Of a stretch of DNA of 64,000 nt, positions 23,943 through 63,878 are shown piece by piece (the stretch's first letter is position 1; every line of letters begins with the position of its first letter). Location: contig NZ_SOQX01000002.1 in the NCBI RefSeq assembly GCF_004366735.1, positions 248,001 to 312,000 on the forward strand, in the 5' to 3' direction. Below the pieces are notes generated by a model, which made no database searches, was not told the origin of the DNA, and was given only the letters and a program-made list of their open reading frames with translations. The stretch comes from Thiohalophilus thiocyanatoxydans (lineage in GTDB: Bacteria > Pseudomonadota > Gammaproteobacteria > UBA6429 > Thiohalophilaceae). The translations under genes were made by a program, and so were the position numbers.

Positions 23943-24185
23943 CGCGTAGTGTTACCTGACGCTTTTTCTTGTGGGATTGTCACGTAGGCTACCGCCAATG
24001 TGACCTGCTCACTCATTTTTCGATGCTCTGGGAATTAACGCGGAGGGCGCGGAGGCGCAGAGACGCGGAGTAAAAATGATCTAGTGGTAGGCCGGACATA
24101 GCACCCTGCGGGCATAAACTCCGCGGTGTCCGGCAATTTGCGGAATGCCCGATACCGCTTCGCTTTATCGGGCCTACGACTGCGT

Positions 24186-56584: not shown

Positions 56585-58672
<2,088 letters not shown>

Positions 58673-58674
58673 AG

Positions 58675-58800
58675 AAAGTTGGCAGATGGCAGTTTGCGGT
58701 TGGCAGTCGTAAATCTTAAGTCGTAAGTCGTTGACTGGATAGTTGTTAGGGCGTGATCCCGATTAGAATTTCTGCCATCTGCCATCTGCCATCTGCCAAC
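58675..58800. repeat. GTTGGCA / TGCCATC heptamer element
   Basis: GTTGGCAGATGGCAGTTTGC (58678 on) and its inverted partner TGCCATCTGCCATCTGCC (58774-58797) flank TAAGTCGTAAGTCG units. The right arm stops exactly where the TCCTACA box array begins. Confidence 0.75.
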
Positions 58801-58810
58801 TTCGATTTTG

Positions 58811-58861
58811 TCCTACACCATTTTCAGCCGATTCCTACAACACGATCGGTCCCGTCCTACA
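58811..58861 (+). promoter_or_regulatory. three TCCTACA boxes at 22-bp spacing
   Basis: TCCTACA occurs at 58811, 58833 and 58855, exactly 22 bp apart (two helical turns). TTTCAGCCGAT between the first two is identical to the fimT copy. A -10-like TATGTT follows at 58884-58889 with no -35 box, suggesting an activator-dependent promoter. Confidence 0.5.
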
Positions 58862-58889
58862 GCTTTTTCGGGAAGGGGGCACTATGTTG

Positions 58890-58971
58890 TTTCTCAACAA
58901 GGACGTTGTACGTGATAGGGATATCACACCCAAAGTCCCGCCCGGCAAGGATGCCCGGCGGGCATTTTTTT
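58890..58971 (+). ncRNA. candidate CsrA/RsmA-binding small RNA
   Basis: About 78 nt would be made from the activator-like promoter to the terminator. Three hairpins each show GGA in the loop: CAAC-AAGGAC-GTTG (58895-58908), GTGATA-GGGA-TATCAC (58912-58927), and GGC-AAGGAT-GCC (58944-58955) at the tip of the terminator stem. The segment aligns with the fimT leader, and the second hairpin shows paired changes (TGACA/TGTCA there, TGATA/TATCA here). A short frame from ATG 58884 has a good ribosome site but no stop before the terminator. An orphaned fimT-type leader is the alternative. Confidence 0.45.
58936..58971 (+). terminator. intrinsic terminator of the candidate small RNA
   Basis: CCCGCCCGGC (58937-58946) pairs with GCCCGGCGGG (58953-58962), with one mismatch, around AAGGAT, and is followed by seven T. 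No conventional gene precedes it; uvrB ends more than 260 bp upstream. Confidence 0.7.
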
Positions 58972-58984
58972 GCACAAAAAAAGC

Positions 58985-59185
58985 TGGCAGTTATCATAAG
59001 GACTTAGGACTTAGGACTTAGGACTTAGGACTTAGGACTTAGGACTTAGGACTGTTCTTTGTAGGAGGGGCTTACAGCCGCGACTCGGGAGAAGGGGCAC
59101 AACCGGTCGCCGATGGAAATCGTCTCCCACAACAAACAGCACTCAGCACTCAGAACTCAGAACTCAGAACTCAGCAGGTAGGGAA
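58985..59185. repeat. (GGACTTA)n array, REP-like unit and (CAGAACT)n array
   Basis: About eight GGACTTA units (58999-59053) are followed by a GTAGGAGGGGCTTACAGCCGCGACTCGGG element with its partner CGCCGATGG...CTCCCAC (59060-59131). Five CAGCACT/CAGAACT units (59141-59174) follow. Confidence 0.85.
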
Positions 59186-59202
59186 AACCCTGATACCCGT
59201 TC

Positions 59203-59243
59203 TGTAAATGATTCTTTACACTCACCGGCGACTCATCTACTAT
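59203..59243 (+). promoter_or_regulatory. promoter of the exopolysaccharide operon with overlapping palindrome
   Basis: TTTACA (59215-59220) and TACTAT (59238-59243) are 17 bp apart. The -35 box is the right half of TGTAAATGATTCTTTACA (59203-59220), a perfect TGTAAA-N6-TTTACA palindrome that also fits the GacA box pattern including the central AT. Transcription would start near 59250, about 90 bp before the ops element. Confidence 0.6.
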
Positions 59244-59325
59244 CACGTTCAACGGGTGAACAAAGCGATTTTTATAAGCTGGCCCGTAAGTTAAGCTAGA
59301 AACCTTTATTATGTTGTGGGAATAA

Positions 59326-59350
59326 CCTGTACGACAGGGCGGTAGCGTGC
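59326..59350 (+). promoter_or_regulatory. ops (operon polarity suppressor) element for RfaH
   Basis: GGCGGTAGCGTGC at 59338-59350 matches the ops sequence through which RfaH is loaded onto paused RNA polymerase. A small hairpin CCTGT-ACG-ACAGG (59326-59338) directly precedes it. It lies about 170 bp before the first gene of the operon that encodes RfaH itself. Confidence 0.85.
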
Positions 59351-59374
59351 CCAAATGCCCCGCTCCCAGCTCGT

Positions 59375-59516
59375 GGGTCCGATATAACACGCGGTATCGG
59401 GCAAATCCGCGCCGGACACCGCTAGCGCTATGTCCGGCCTACGACTCTAAATTCAGCTTGTAGGCCCGATAAAGCAACGCGGTATCGGGCAAACCCGCTC
59501 AGCACTCAGAACTCTT
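59375..59516. repeat. REP-like pairs and heptamers in the operon leader
   Basis: GATATAACACGCGGTATCGG, GCCGGACACCGCTAGCGCTATGTCCGGC (59413-59440) and GCCCGATAAAGCAACGCGGTATCGGGC (59464-59490) palindromes are followed by CTCAGCACTCAGAACTC (59498-59514). They lie between ops and the marR start, so they are inside the leader RNA and could fold. Confidence 0.75.
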
Positions 59517-59520
59517 TTTA

Positions 59521-59868
59521 ATGCTAACCGACGAAACCCGCTACAAGCTGTTAAAACGGCTGGAAGAGAACCCGCACATTAACCAGCGCGAGCTGGCCAA
59601 TGAGCTGGGCATCAGCCTGGGCAAGACCAATTACTGCCTCAAGGCGCTGATCGATAAAGGCTGGGTCAAGGTCGGCAATTTCCGCCAAAACCCGCACAAA
59701 TTGCAGTATGCTTATCTTCTGACCCCAAAGGGGCTGGAAGAGAAAGCGCGGGTGACCCTGCGCTTTTTAAAACGCAAACAGCAGGAACACGAACAACTGC
59801 TGGAAGAACTCAAGGAGCTGCGCGAAGAGGTCGCCGCTCTCAAGCCGCTCGAAGAAGGGGAAGTGTAA
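59521..59868 (+). CDS. MarR-family EPS-associated transcriptional regulator
   Basis: Winged-helix regulator of 115 aa ([73 protein letters not shown]) with a C-terminal coiled coil. It belongs to the MarR-like family that opens exopolysaccharide gene clusters. There is no Shine-Dalgarno sequence: the ATG follows heptamer sequence GAACTCTTTTTA. It ends 2 bp before rfaH, so the two form a unit. Its likely target is the palindrome at the operon promoter, by inference. Confidence 0.85.
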
Positions 59869-59870
59869 GG

Positions 59871-60371
59871 ATGCATCACTGGTACGTGGTCCAGACCAAG
59901 CCGCAAAAAGAATCGCTGGCCGTGGCGAATCTCGAGCGCCAGGGCTATACCACTTATTTCCCTAAAATGGCCGAGGCCAAACGTCGACGCCAGCGCTGGC
60001 AAAAAATTATCGAGCCGCTGTTTCCCCGCTACCTGTTCGTCCAGCTGGCCCGGGGGATCGACGACTTCGCCCCCATTCGCTCGACCCTGGGCGTGCTGAA
60101 CATGGTCCGCTTCGGCAACGAACCGGCGACCATCTCGCAACAGGCGATCGACACCATCCACCGGCAGGAACAGATTCTGCTCGGTGAACCGGGCGACCAA
60201 CCCGCCTGGCGGCCGGGCGACAAGGTTCAGGTCGTGGAAGGCGCCTTTACCGGCCTCAACGGCGTTTTTGAAAAAGCCAGCGGCACCGAACGGGTCATCA
60301 TCCTGCTGGACATGCTGGGCCGCCAGAACCGCGTCACCGTCGAAACCCACGACATCGTCCCGGCGAGATAG
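59871..60371 (+). CDS. rfaH: transcription antiterminator RfaH
   Basis: NusG paralogue of 166 aa that prolongs transcription of envelope and polysaccharide operons bearing ops. HHWYVVQTKPQKESLAVANLERQGYTTYFPKM starts the NGN domain, PLFPRYLFVQLARGIDDFAPIRSTLGVLNMVRFGNEPATI holds the polymerase-binding part, and a KOW-type C-terminal domain follows (WRPGDKVQVVEGAFTGLNGVFEKAS). Being inside an operon with its own ops resembles LoaP, TaA and UpxY systems more than E. coli, where rfaH is unlinked. Confidence 0.9.
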   Translation: MHHWYVVQTKPQKESLAVANLERQGYTTYFPKMAEAKRRRQRWQKIIEPLFPRYLFVQLARGIDDFAPIRSTLGVLNMVRFGNEPATISQQAIDTIHRQEQILLGEPGDQPAWRPGDKVQVVEGAFTGLNGVFEKASGTERVIILLDMLGRQNRVTVETHDIVPAR

Positions 60372-60768
60372 CACCTGTAGGAGGGGCTTGACGTACATGG
60401 ATGTACTAACACCCAAAACACTCGCCTTGCTCGCGGGGTGGGCTCTGTCGCGGAAGGCATGGTGCCCTGACCTATCGAAGATAGGTAGGGTACTCATAAT
60501 AAAACCCGCAGGGGTTCTATGAGACAAGACCTGAGCAACGCGAAGTAATGCTGAATGAAACCCGAAGGGGTTCTACAGTGAGCCGTGAGAGACTCAGCCG
60601 CGACTCGGGAGAAAGGGCACAACCGTCGCCGATAGCCCGTAGGCCCGATAAAGCAACGCGGTATCGGGCAGCTCGTGCCGGACACCGCGGAGTTTATGCC
60701 CGAAGGGTGCTATGTCCGGCCTACGACTAAGAACTAAGAACTATTTCTTGACTCAGAACTGGATTTAT
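60372..60768. repeat. gap with several dispersed repeats
   Basis: A GTAGGAGGGGCTTGACG unit and GTACATGGATGTAC palindrome (60376-60407) are followed by ACCTATCGAAGATAGGT hairpin (60470-60486). Two AAACCC(GCA/GAA)GGGGTTCTA hairpins (60502 and 60559) come next, then another CGCGACTCGGGAGAA unit (60600) and GCCCGATAAAGC / GCCGGACACCGC pairs (60643-60725). CTAAGAACTAAGAACT heptamers (60726-60742) end it. No gene seen. Confidence 0.75.
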
Positions 60769-60769
60769 A

Positions 60770-61591
60770 ATGAACAACAATAACCAAATACCACCCCAGA
60801 ATCAGCCCCCGTCTCCACAACAATACTACTACCCTGACGACGAAATCAGCCTCATCGATCTCTGGAACACCCTGATGCGGCGCAAAAAAATCGTGATCGC
60901 TGTATTCGCACTGGTTATTGTCGTAGCCGTCATCTATCTGCTACTGACAAAACCGGTCTATGAAAGTAGGGCAATGATTCAGGTTGGACAAGTCGGAAGT
61001 GTTGGCGATGTTGAGGAATTTTCGGAAATGAAACAACGCCTGTTAGCGGAATCTCCAGTACTGGATTCTGTTGAGAAAAAATCTAATAACACGGCAACCC
61101 TGGTTGTTACGAATACTGACAGAGAAACCAGCCAGGAACAGCTCGACAAGATAGTGAATAACCTGCTGGACAAGCATCGCAACCGTTTCCATGATCTTAG
61201 CTCTCCCGTGAAGGAACGCCGCGATACACTCCAGCGCCGCCTGAGCGGTTTTGAGCATCAACTCGATGAACTGGACCTGCAGATCAATCGGTTACGCGCC
61301 GATCAACCGGTACAGGCCGCCGTGCTGATGATTGAAAAAGGCAACATCATCCGTGCCACCCCGGAACTGGAAGAGAGACTGGCCGAACTGGAACAGGCAC
61401 TCAGCGAACCCAGGACCCAACAGACGGAAATGGTGGGCGAAATAGTATCGCCGGAAAATCCCATCAAACCCAAACCCGGCCTGGTCATGGCCCTGTCCAT
61501 CATCCTGGGCCTCATGCTCGGCATCTTCGCCGCCTTCTTCGCCGAATTCATCGCAAAGGCAAGAACCTCGACCACGGGAACGGTAATGTAG
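60770..61591 (+). CDS. Wzz-like polysaccharide chain-length determinant protein
   Basis: Inner-membrane polysaccharide co-polymerase of 273 aa. A Pro/Gln-rich N-terminus is followed by DDEISLIDLWNTLMRRKKIVIAVFALVIVVAVIYLLLTKPVYES (Wzz signature and first membrane helix, about 25-66). A periplasmic coiled-coil region (HRNRFHDLSSPVKERRDTLQRRLSGFEHQL) and the C-terminal Pro-rich second helix (PIKPKPGLVMALSIILGLMLGIFAAFFAEFIAKA) complete the pattern. It is shorter than O-antigen Wzz proteins (about 325 aa) and has no kinase domain. Confidence 0.88.
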   Translation: MNNNNQIPPQNQPPSPQQYYYPDDEISLIDLWNTLMRRKKIVIAVFALVIVVAVIYLLLTKPVYESRAMIQVGQVGSVGDVEEFSEMKQRLLAESPVLDSVEKKSNNTATLVVTNTDRETSQEQLDKIVNNLLDKHRNRFHDLSSPVKERRDTLQRRLSGFEHQLDELDLQINRLRADQPVQAAVLMIEKGNIIRATPELEERLAELEQALSEPRTQQTEMVGEIVSPENPIKPKPGLVMALSIILGLMLGIFAAFFAEFIAKARTSTTGTVM

Positions 61592-61592
61592 A

Positions 61593-61650
61593 TTTTAGTT
61601 CTTAGCTCTTAGTACTAAGAACACAGCACTCAGCACTCAGCACTATCTTT
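61593..61650. repeat. heptamer array between wzz and the four-helix protein
   Basis: AGTTCTTAGCTCTTAGTACTAAGAAC forms an inverted pair (61598-61621), followed by three CAGCACT units (61624-61644). Confidence 0.75.
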
Positions 61651-61669: not shown

Positions 61670-62041
61670 ATGAGCGGAATAAAACGGTTCGAAGACCTGG
61701 TAGCCTGGCAAAAATCCAGGGACATGGCTGCCACAATTTATAAAACCACCGGCGAAGGCAGTTTTTCCAAAGACTTTGCCCTTCGCGACCAGATTCGACG
61801 AGCAGCTGTATCGGTTATGTCGAATATCGCGGAAGGTTTCGAGCGTAAAGGGTCAAAAGAATTTCACCAATTCCTGGTTGTCGCCAAAGCCTCCTGTGCC
61901 GAAGTCCGCTCCCAGTTATACGTTGCTCTCGACGTAGGATATATAAACAAGAATATATTTGAACACTTGTACGAGAGCTCGGTTGAAGTATCAAAAATAA
62001 TCTCTGGCCTGAGAGCCTCAGTCGCCAAACAATGTGAATAA
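61670..62041 (+). CDS. four-helix bundle protein (S23/IVP family), copy 1
   Basis: Protein of 123 aa of the 23S rRNA intervening-sequence-protein family: [76 protein letters not shown]. The SNIAEG motif is diagnostic. It is not inside an rRNA gene here. The fold is shared with Avd of diversity-generating retroelements, but no reverse transcriptase is in the window. It has a good GGGAGGAG ribosome site, unlike its neighbours marR and ugd. Function unknown. Confidence 0.88.
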
Positions 62042-62108
62042 TCAAGTACTAAGTACAAAGAACTCTTTTATGACTAAGTACTAAGAACTCGGAACTTAGA
62101 ACTCTTTT
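62040..62108. repeat. heptamer array upstream of ugd
   Basis: AAGTACTAAGTAC, AAGAACTCTTTTATGACTAAG, ACTAAGAACTCGGAACTTAG units run to the ugd start. The phrase GAACTCTTTTATGACT occurs twice (62063 and 62101), the second containing the ugd ATG. Confidence 0.8.
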
Positions 62109-63392
62109 ATGACTCAGAACTCAGAACTCAGAACTAAGAACTATAAAGTGGCCATCGCCGGCACCGGCTACGTCGGTCTCTCCAACGCCATCCTGCTGGC
62201 CCAGCACAACGAGGTTGTCGCCCTGGACATCGATCCGGAAAAAGTCGAACTCATCAATGCGCGCAAATCCCCGATCATCGACACCGAGATCGAGGACTAC
62301 CTGGCGAACAACAACCTCAACCTGCGCGCCACGCTGGACAAAAACGAGGCCTATCAGGACGCCGACTTCGTCATCATCGCCACCCCGACCGACTACGACC
62401 CGGTAACCAACTACTTCAACACCAGCACCGTCGAGTCCGTCATCGCAGACGTCCTGGCCATCAACCCCGACACCACGATGGTCATAAAATCAACAGTACC
62501 CGTAGGGTACACAGCCGGGTTAAAGTCTGAAGATTTCCGACTTCCGACTTCCGATTGCGACCTGAAAAATGTGAGTCTGTTTTTTTCACCAGAATTCTTG
62601 AGAGAAGGTAAAGCACTACACGATAACCTCTACCCCTCGCGCATCATCGTTGGCGAACAATCCGAGCGGGCCGAAACGTTTGCCAACCTGCTCAGGCAGG
62701 GCGCGGTAAAAGAAGACATCCCGGTGCTGTTCATGAACAGCACCGAAGCCGAAGCGGTCAAACTGTTTGCCAACACTTATCTGGCCATGCGGGTCGCCTA
62801 CTTCAACGAACTGGACACCTACGCCGAGACCCATAACCTCGACACCCGGCACATCATCGACGGCGTCTGCCTGGATCCGCGCATCGGCAGCCACTACAAC
62901 AATCCCTCGTTTGGCTACGGCGGCTATTGCCTGCCCAAGGACACCAAGCAGCTGCTGGCCAATTACCAGGATATTCCCGGTAACATCATCCAGGCCATTG
63001 TCGATGCGAATACCACCCGCAAGGATTTTGTCGCCGACAGCATCCTCAGGCGACTCAACAACACATCCCCTCTCCCTCAGGGAGAGGGCAAGGGAGAGGG
63101 GATATCAAAGCAGAAAACCGTCGGTGTCTACCGCCTGGTCATGAAAAGCGGCTCCGACAACTTCCGCACCTCCGCCATCCAGGGCGTGATGAAGCGAATC
63201 AAGGCCAAGGGCATCGAAGTCGTCGTCTACGAACCGGCGCTGGAAGATGACAACTTTTACAACTCCCGCGTCATCAAGGATTTGAACGAATTCAAACAAA
63301 CCTGCGACATCATCATCGCCAACCGCCGGTCAGAAAACCTGACCGATGTCGCAGACAAGGTATACACGCGGGATCTGTTTAACAGCGACTAG
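62109..63392 (+). CDS. ugd: UDP-glucose 6-dehydrogenase, with in-frame repeat insertions
   Basis: Oxidises UDP-glucose to UDP-glucuronate for polysaccharide. 427 aa: [29 protein letters not shown] (NAD site), [25 protein letters not shown], and catalytic Cys in [19 protein letters not shown]. It is close to E. coli Ugd (388 aa, from memory) except for three additions: residues 1-12 are encoded by heptamers, about ten residues ([10 protein letters not shown], near 62526-62560) by TTCCGAC heptamers, and about twenty ([15 protein letters not shown], near 63064-63104) by the CCCTCTCCC palindrome. The frame stays intact. No ribosome site is seen at the ATG; a GTG at 62148 is an alternative start. 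Confidence 0.93.
62526..62560 (+). repeat. heptamer repeat inside ugd
   Basis: TTCCGACTTCCGACTTCCGA (62535 on) is three tandem 7-bp units of the AGTCGGA type also seen at 51468. It is translated as part of an extra loop relative to E. coli Ugd. Confidence 0.7.
63064..63104 (+). repeat. CCCTCTCCC palindrome inside ugd
   Basis: CCCCTCTCCCTCAGGGAGAG followed by GGCAAGGGAGAGGGG is a member of the intergenic CCCTCCCC palindrome family. It adds about 20 residues between two conserved segments of Ugd. Confidence 0.75.
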
Positions 63393-63509: not shown

Positions 63510-63878
63510 ATGGCAAAGGAAAATGCCGTTCTGGAAAAGTCATTCGCGTTTGCGGTTCGGGTGATCAATATACACAAAAAATTGGCGGCTAATCGTGAGT
63601 ATATTTTGTCCAAACAGTTATTACGCGCCGGGACGTCGATTGGTGCCAATGTGAATGAGGCTCAGGCCGGTCAGAGTCGAAATGACTTTACTGCCAAAAT
63701 GGCTATAGCGAGCAAAGAAGCCAGAGAAACCAAATACTGGATTGACTTGCTGGTGGAAACAGGCTATTTGGTCAGACAGGATGATGAGACGAAATCTCTC
63801 ATTGATGAATCCGAGCAACTAGTCAGGTTATTGACAAAGATCGTCAAATCAAGCGCCTGTTATAAAATAGATAGATGA
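63510..63878 (+). CDS. four-helix bundle protein (S23/IVP family), copy 2
   Basis: Protein of 122 aa: LEKSFAFAVRVINIHKKLAANREYILSKQLLRAGTSIGANVNEAQAGQSRNDFTAKMAIASKEARETKYWIDLLVETGYL. The SIGANVNEA motif corresponds to SNIAEG of the first copy, but the two differ greatly and belong to separate subgroups. GGAGG lies 6 bases before the ATG. It is flanked by a heptamer element upstream and ATTCAAAA-type repeat downstream. Function unknown. Confidence 0.88.
   Translation: MAKENAVLEKSFAFAVRVINIHKKLAANREYILSKQLLRAGTSIGANVNEAQAGQSRNDFTAKMAIASKEARETKYWIDLLVETGYLVRQDDETKSLIDESEQLVRLLTKIVKSSACYKIDR

Follow-up and report, generated by a model that had tools for sequence, protein, structure and literature searches.

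An ops element ahead of marR and rfaH in a polysaccharide operon of Thiohalophilus thiocyanatoxydans, a variant of the RfaH/ops system

The window analysed here, a stretch of 64,000 nucleotides from one contig (C2) of Thiohalophilus thiocyanatoxydans, ends within the head of a polysaccharide gene cluster, which occupies its last 5 kb and continues past it on the same contig in one direction. The co-directional, mostly polysaccharide-type genes span ~34 kb, the last ending at ~C2:342027, and the translations of those lying past the window were judged by eye to be manC-, epimerase-, ABC transporter-, neuB-, wecB-, glycosyltransferase- and sugar transferase-like. A perfect ops element lies in the leader of this gene run, and the first two genes behind it encode a MarR_EPS regulator and RfaH. 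The features of the locus are as follows:

59215-59243 (+), promoter-like site TTTACA-17-TACTAT ahead of ops, from a consensus scan alone
59312-59337 (+), hairpin before ops, stem TGTTGTG (59312-59318) with TACGACA (59330-59336), 7 pairs
59326-59330 with 59334-59338 (+), shorter competing stem, CCTGT with ACAGG, from the minimum-energy fold
59338-59350 (+), ops element GGCGGTAGCGTGC, perfect 13-mer, from an exact-pattern search of window and genome
59351-59520 (+), leader from ops to marR with a REP-like repeat, exact 27-mer at 59464-59490
59521-59868 (+), gene for a MarR_EPS regulator, 115 aa (TIGR04176, 159.9 bits, above the cut-off of 88)
59871-60371 (+), rfaH, 166 aa (TIGR01955, 153.1 bits, above the cut-off of 144.5)
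60372-60769 (+), intergenic stretch from rfaH to wzz with REP-like repeats and no second ops, exact 27-mer at 60643-60669
60770-61591 (+), Wzz-type chain-length gene, the first polysaccharide gene (Pfam PF02706, 54.7 bits, cut-off 25.5)
62109-63392 (+), nucleotide-sugar (UDP-glucose type) dehydrogenase gene (TIGR03026, 339.7 bits, cut-off 189.8)

The genome encodes one RfaH; a second match, on contig C13, is 24% identical and, at 51.7 bits, stands at the level of distant NusG-like proteins. Two four-helix-bundle proteins are encoded among the polysaccharide genes (61670-62041 and 63510-63878; TIGR02436, 116.7 and 100.5 bits, cut-off 24), the first of which also matches Pfam 23S_rRNA_IVP. At 63067-63100, the ugd-like gene contains a short in-frame repeat similar by eye to SPPGGEGQGEGE in a second dehydrogenase gene (L009, 7998-9395), and short tandem repeats (GGACTTA, CAGCACTCAGAACTC) were likewise seen by eye in the gaps at 58990-59050, 59130-59180, 61595-61650 and 62040-62140, some of them reaching start codons.

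The initial annotation had placed a perfect ops element, preceded by a hairpin, in the leader of an operon with rfaH as its second gene, and the exact-pattern search bore this out, with GGCGGTAGCGTGC at 59338-59350 (+) and rfaH as the second gene downstream. No other exact copy occurs in the window or elsewhere in the 2.9 Mb genome (one forward, none reverse), and this one matches the consensus in full, lies on the coding strand and precedes a long gene run. Under a first-order Markov model with the composition of the window, 0.14 copies of the 13-mer are expected per genome and ~1e-5 per 500-base leader on the right strand. Across C2:306800-365900, the stretch holding the cluster, no other ops with up to one mismatch to the 12-base ops was found on either strand. 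A degenerate form of ops (GGCGGTAGNNT) was uninformative, with 18 places in the genome vs 42 for the reversed pattern, and the exact core was used instead. Several further sites were not counted as ops: GGCGGTAGCGT at C1:114992 (L001:1501-1511), which lies 52 bases before a GGDEF-like reading frame (by eye) and could be chance; GGCGGTAGTGT at C2:346286 and C5:42007, both within reading frames of the other strand; and GGCGGTAGCCTAC at 23984-23996 (-), to which the GGCGGTAGCCTGC sites at C1:453027 and C1:453271 are similar, these looking like another repeat.

Within 58660-60800, the consensus scan returned two promoter-like sites (58969 and 59215) vs 1.0 expected in shuffles, which is weak evidence; with the same limited weight, it placed no promoter-like site between ops and marR, and a scan of this stretch returned no terminator-like site. 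The hairpin preceding ops is present as two competing predicted stems that end at ops, the minimum-energy fold here being the short CCTGT/ACAGG stem and the longer seven-pair stem its alternative. Between ops and marR, the leader (59351-59520) is predicted to fold strongly, at -60.8 kcal/mol (a raw energy with no shuffle baseline). The REP-like hairpins that had been noted in the leader are real and belong to a genome-wide repeat: GCCCGATAAAGCAACGCGGTATCGGGC was found at 43 places in the genome with up to three mismatches, vs 0 for the reversed pattern, and two exact copies of it flank marR-rfaH. Sub-threshold Rfam matches to naRNA4 on the minus strand (60642-60721 and 59376-59439; 26.2 and 21.2 bits, gathering score 59.5; E 0.051 and 0.69) overlap the REP-like repeats and were set aside. 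By eye, no Shine-Dalgarno-like stretch is seen at 59496-59520, ahead of marR, and rfaH has a purine-rich one; a lack of Shine-Dalgarno-like sites is noted for RfaH-controlled genes in the available text of PMC7819879.

Comparison with other ops sites indicated that the hairpin is conserved at such sites. In the 45 bases before ops at 44 sites, a stem ending at ops scored a mean of 14.5 vs 9.5 in shuffles (0 of 200 shuffle rounds as high), and the mean fold z was -1.5 before ops and -0.07 after it. Positions -6 to -2 paired with the 5' side in 189 of 220 cells in the minimum-energy folds of these 44 sites, as compared with a mean of 117 in shuffles (highest of 100: 137) and of 144 in swaps of the 5' part (highest of 100: 171). 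When 63 sites were taken, 271 of 315 cells were paired, whereas swaps averaged 192 (highest of 300: 221); folding was also stronger than in 189 control stretches from further upstream (P 2e-8). As a MAFFT alignment did not line up the 5' arms, each sequence was scored for pairs on its own, and each paired hairpin position is formed by several pair types. In 57 of the 63 sites, the end of the stem falls between -2 and +1 of ops; the +1 limit is partly set by the cut, the folds stopping at the second ops base. In the genus mate, the leader is widely different, and ops and the hairpins stay, with one pair changed (T-A to C-G).

With polymerase held at U11 of ops, the spacing from stem to RNA end is ~9-12 bases, close to that found for the his pause hairpin. 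Polymerase pauses at ops U11 according to PMC11001881, and the available text of that paper describes the ops pause as distinct from hairpin pauses; we hypothesize that the natural leader combines an ops pause with a hairpin pause. Because the E. coli waaQ and rfbB leaders fold likewise, with a hairpin ending at ops, and a JUMPstart stem-loop was reported in gamma-Proteobacteria in 2010 (PMC2864571, as far as its available text goes), the predicted hairpin before ops is a divergent form of the known JUMPstart element. It resembles the JUMPstart RNA motif (Rfam RF01707) in being a stem-loop directly before ops. RF01707 itself gave no match at E up to 1 in the leader of the window, with the gathering score not reached, and it was over the cut-off in 0 of 20 genomes searched, with some weak matches falling on ops sites, and in 1 of 14 control genomes.

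To place the locus within its class, the same 369 genomes were searched for TIGR01955 and for the exact 13-mer, which was present in 38 of the 68 genomes with RfaH over the cut-off and in 36 of the 301 others (Fisher P 1e-13); the reversed control pattern did not differ (11/68 with RfaH vs 55/301 without). The 13-mer was absent from the remaining 30 of the 68 RfaH genomes. With weaker RfaH counted as present, the numbers were 42/81 vs 32/288, a tally that leaves out G225 (RfaH match of 67.8 bits, 13-mer present); its inclusion gives 43/82 vs 31/287 and leaves 38/68 unaffected. From the matches of 81 genomes down to E 1.1e-18, 82 RfaH loci were taken, each with flanks of up to ~8 kb; the window was included, and NusG-like matches were omitted together with a further weak one in G283 (62.1 bits). 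Under a rule of an exact 11-base core and up to one mismatch in 13, ops lay on the rfaH strand in 34 of the 82 loci, 25 of them perfect, and on the opposite strand in none. No ops was nearby under the same rule in 48 loci, some of which lie at contig ends, so a broken contig is possible there. Start codons in these loci were set by script, and loci of related genomes are non-independent, which a binomial value for the strand bias does not take into account. A search of genome contigs for related loci returned two Chlamydiae loci only and was not used further.

The element was also linked to the gene that separates it from rfaH in the window. Among 42 genomes with MarR_EPS over the TIGR04176 cut-off, in which the stretch around marR was scanned, ops was found in 13 of 16 genomes with RfaH over the cut-off, in 2 of 5 with weaker RfaH and in 1 of 21 without (13/16 vs 1/21, P 2e-6). 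The RfaH-less exception (G194) has the sequence GGCGGTAGCGTAC near marR, and its genus relative G057 has RfaH. Ops lies 33-450 bases ahead of marR in 10 of the 16 ops-bearing MarR_EPS loci and behind the predicted marR start in the other six, and in several of the 16 rfaH is outside the scanned stretch. The locus of G089 covers 1.5 kb only, with a start set by hand, and that of G219 has ops inside the predicted marR frame, so its marR start is unsure. With its presence tracking RfaH and its strand and position kept, the 13-mer at 59338-59350 behaves as a genuine RfaH element, and we consider it a real ops that is most likely functional.

Of the 34 loci with ops in cis, 30 place it behind the rfaH start and four ahead, so that ops-rfaH linkage is common and self-control the exception. 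Common orders with ops after are rfaH, an HTH gene of ~200-250 codons and then ops, or marR, rfaH and then ops; in many relatives (L130, L132-L134, L138, L141-L143 and others), the HTH protein of ~200-250 codons between rfaH and ops has a weak TIGR04176 match. The four loci with ops ahead of rfaH are this window (-533 bases), G242 (-491, with marR between), G134 (-98) and G318 (-52), and in the latter three rfaH is followed by genes that look polysaccharide-type by eye, a transposase-like pair intervening in G242. In G338, a variant (GGCGGTAGCGTTA) precedes rfaH and GGCGGTAGCGTGG lies behind it. Within the family of the window, RfaH was over the cut-off in 20 of 40 genomes, and at 22 RfaH loci (two under the cut-off, up to 1.5 kb on each side) ops was after rfaH in 12, ahead in three and not in the stretch in seven; in one of these seven (G239), a same-strand ops preceded by a hairpin lies 13 kb further downstream. 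The family members with ops ahead are this genome, its genus mate G403 and G394, and both G403 and G394 keep the order ops-marR-rfaH. In a tree of 99 RfaH proteins, those of the window, G403, G242, G179 and G394 form one clade (support 100/99, bootstrap not settled), and ops is ahead of rfaH in four of its five members; G134 and G318 fall outside it, and the tree, its bootstrap not settled, needs at least three layout changes. The fifth member, G179, has no ops within three mismatches in the 3 kb before rfaH; a broken marR lies there (L182, the 900 bases before rfaH), ops and marR having decayed together.

The RfaH of the window aligns over its full length with E. coli RfaH chains (E 2.5e-19; ~30% identity in structure alignments), and scores 114.8 against the related model PRK09014, under its cut-off of 124. 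Changes at K10, R16, H20, T72 and R73 of E. coli RfaH strongly harm the ops pause, as described in the available text of PMC2871177; the window protein keeps K10 and T72, and R16, H20 and R73 are changed, so that two of the five are left. Among relatives that have ops in cis, K10 is K in 33/35 and T72 is T in 35/35, and positions 20 and 73 vary, commonly with the drift seen in the window protein (N20 in 27/35, L or I73 in 25/35). Four residues tied to autoinhibition in E. coli RfaH, E48, I93, F130 and R138, are kept in the window protein. AlphaFold2, given an alignment of 58 class members without E. coli RfaH, modelled a NusG-like KOW domain in the beta form (mean pLDDT 93, pTM 0.68), a kind of prediction that input alignments steer; the single-sequence model reached a pLDDT of 33.7. 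The top Foldseek match of the window model was a NusG model, followed by E. coli RfaH in its fully recruited state at ops (8phk, TM 0.52). If the modelled beta-form KOW means no autoinhibition, ops may not be needed.

Self-activation of rfaH through its own ops appears likely to us: we give a probability of roughly 0.65 to RfaH being recruited at ops in its own leader and raising its own expression, since rfaH lies behind the only exact ops of the genome. Transcription would start upstream of the hairpin, and polymerase copying 59338-59350 would pause at ops, the RNA hairpin ending there probably lengthening or shaping the pause. RfaH, itself the product of the second gene on this transcript, would then bind the paused polymerase through the non-template ops strand and exclude NusG and Rho, and the RfaH-polymerase complex would traverse the repeat-rich leader, marR, rfaH and the polysaccharide genes (~34 kb). 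RfaH would in this way boost its own expression in a positive loop that amplifies the operon. We infer recruitment, antitermination and feedback at this locus by analogy with E. coli RfaH. Counting for self-activation would be the co-occurrence across the class, the strand bias, the linkage to MarR_EPS, the layout kept in the clade, the predicted hairpin and the single genomic ops; counting against it would be the two of five ops residues kept, the modelled beta-form KOW, the 48/82 loci without ops, the 30/68 genomes without the 13-mer and the loss in G179. The switch-like polysaccharide expression that the initial annotation expected from such a loop is unsupported. Since each RfaH molecule acts on a single polymerase, feedback of this kind would by itself give amplification and not a switch, and MarR, encoded between ops and rfaH, could dampen the loop.

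Ops may instead serve the polysaccharide genes, with rfaH riding along as marR-rfaH heads the cluster and the feedback, present on paper, being negligible, for instance because little RfaH suffices or because rfaH has an additional promoter of its own. We judge this unlikely. The usual placement of ops after the rfaH start does imply that self-control is not generally needed, and the loci with ops 33-450 bases ahead of marR, several with rfaH elsewhere, imply that an ops-marR head is possible without rfaH; yet the layout with rfaH behind ops is kept in four of five clade members, and no second ops gives the distal genes an access that bypasses rfaH. Somewhat less probable again is that the window RfaH is monomorphic and constitutively active and loads in cis without ops, which would then be a mere pause site or a relic. 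The modelled beta-form KOW, with its mean pLDDT of 93, and the change of three of five key ops-binding residues are consistent with this, and such proteins beside long operons are described in the available text of PMC13015549. A useless ops would, however, decay, yet ops tracks RfaH across the class and is perfect here, and the model derives from 58 class members with no E. coli RfaH, its single-sequence counterpart having failed. E48, I93, F130 and R138 also speak against a monomorphic protein by being kept, but E48 and R138 are kept in beta-form predictions as well, by the account available in PMC13015549. A chance match at 59338-59350 is highly improbable, for although ~0.14 exact copies are expected per genome and 36/301 RfaH-less genomes also contain a 13-mer, the place, strand and hairpin of ops argue otherwise and the genus mate keeps ops and hairpin though the rest of its leader differs.

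The locus is a variant of the RfaH/ops system and invites comparison with several known systems. Like E. coli RfaH with ops/JUMPstart in the waaQ and rfbB leaders, it has the identical 13 bases, a hairpin ending at ops and polysaccharide genes behind; unlike there, rfaH is the second gene behind ops. The likeness to LoaP, TaA and UpxY that had been drawn for this locus fits in gene position, but LoaP uses an RNA hairpin and no ops is named for the others in the available text of the sources. UpxY of Bacteroides fragilis is also an antiterminator with its gene near the start of the polysaccharide operon that it activates, acting on the leader ahead of its own gene (PMC7819879, available text), but it is a different NusG paralogue, the window RfaH scoring 82.9 bits against NF033644 (below the cut-off of 100), and the available text of PMC7819879 names no ops for it. 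LoaP of Bacillus velezensis is similarly a NusG paralogue whose leader bears an RNA hairpin, although the window RfaH reaches 53.3 bits against NF033641 (below the cut-off of 125); LoaP binds the RNA hairpin and acts on intrinsic terminators, according to the text available for PMC12691694. The monomorphic RfaH proteins beside long operons (PMC13015549, a preprint, in its available text) resemble that of the window in being encoded in their likely target operon and, by our model, in their NusG-like KOW, but they are called ops-independent, whereas a perfect ops heads the window operon.

In the available text of earlier surveys, certain NusG paralogues are described as encoded within the operons they target, by a mode of recruitment not known there, the neighbours of RfaH vary, and one RfaH cluster goes with an HTH regulator (PMC7593976, PMC7819879); this last may be the pairing of MarR_EPS or HTH genes with rfaH seen here. 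The 2026 preprint describes RfaH beside long operons as monomorphic and ops-independent and associates ops with action in trans; its genomic-context method is based on gene distances, and the available text mentions no ops search (PMC13015549). A clean cis/trans split is not fitted by these loci, in which cis-encoded RfaH often has ops in cis. Our searches of open-licence papers turned up no report of ops ahead of rfaH itself. From NusG to RfaH, the proposed path, as given in the available text of PMC7593976, PMC7819879 and PMC13015549, runs through action in cis without ops first, after which autoinhibition and the recognition of ops emerged jointly with action in trans.

With a modest chance of being right, and so offered tentatively, is the view that cis-encoded RfaH is a living intermediate, not autoinhibited (beta KOW), addressed by ops together with an RNA hairpin whose end lies ~9-12 bases back from the end of the paused RNA, and acting on its own operon. 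If true, ops targeting would predate autoinhibition and action in trans, pausing at natural ops would be assisted by a hairpin and not due to the consensus alone, and the layout in the clade of the window would also make RfaH its own activator. Many rfaH genes beside likely polysaccharide operons, in many families of the class, are accompanied in the same stretch by an ops that is perfect or has one mismatch, and a few lie behind it, which provides natural systems for directly testing in what order these steps came, what the hairpin does and how self-targeting acts. The class-wide linkage of ops to rfaH and marR_EPS matters more than the single loop, and ops adjoining rfaH and marR_EPS is a simple rule for finding RfaH-controlled polysaccharide loci in environmental bacteria. 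Three related genomes (G259, G355 and G147) contain 6, 5 and 3 exact 13-mers respectively, pointing to a likely larger ops regulon beside the cis-linked site. At the 44 ops sites, the bases directly 3' of the 13-mer are conserved as well, commonly C, T or C, G or A, A, A.
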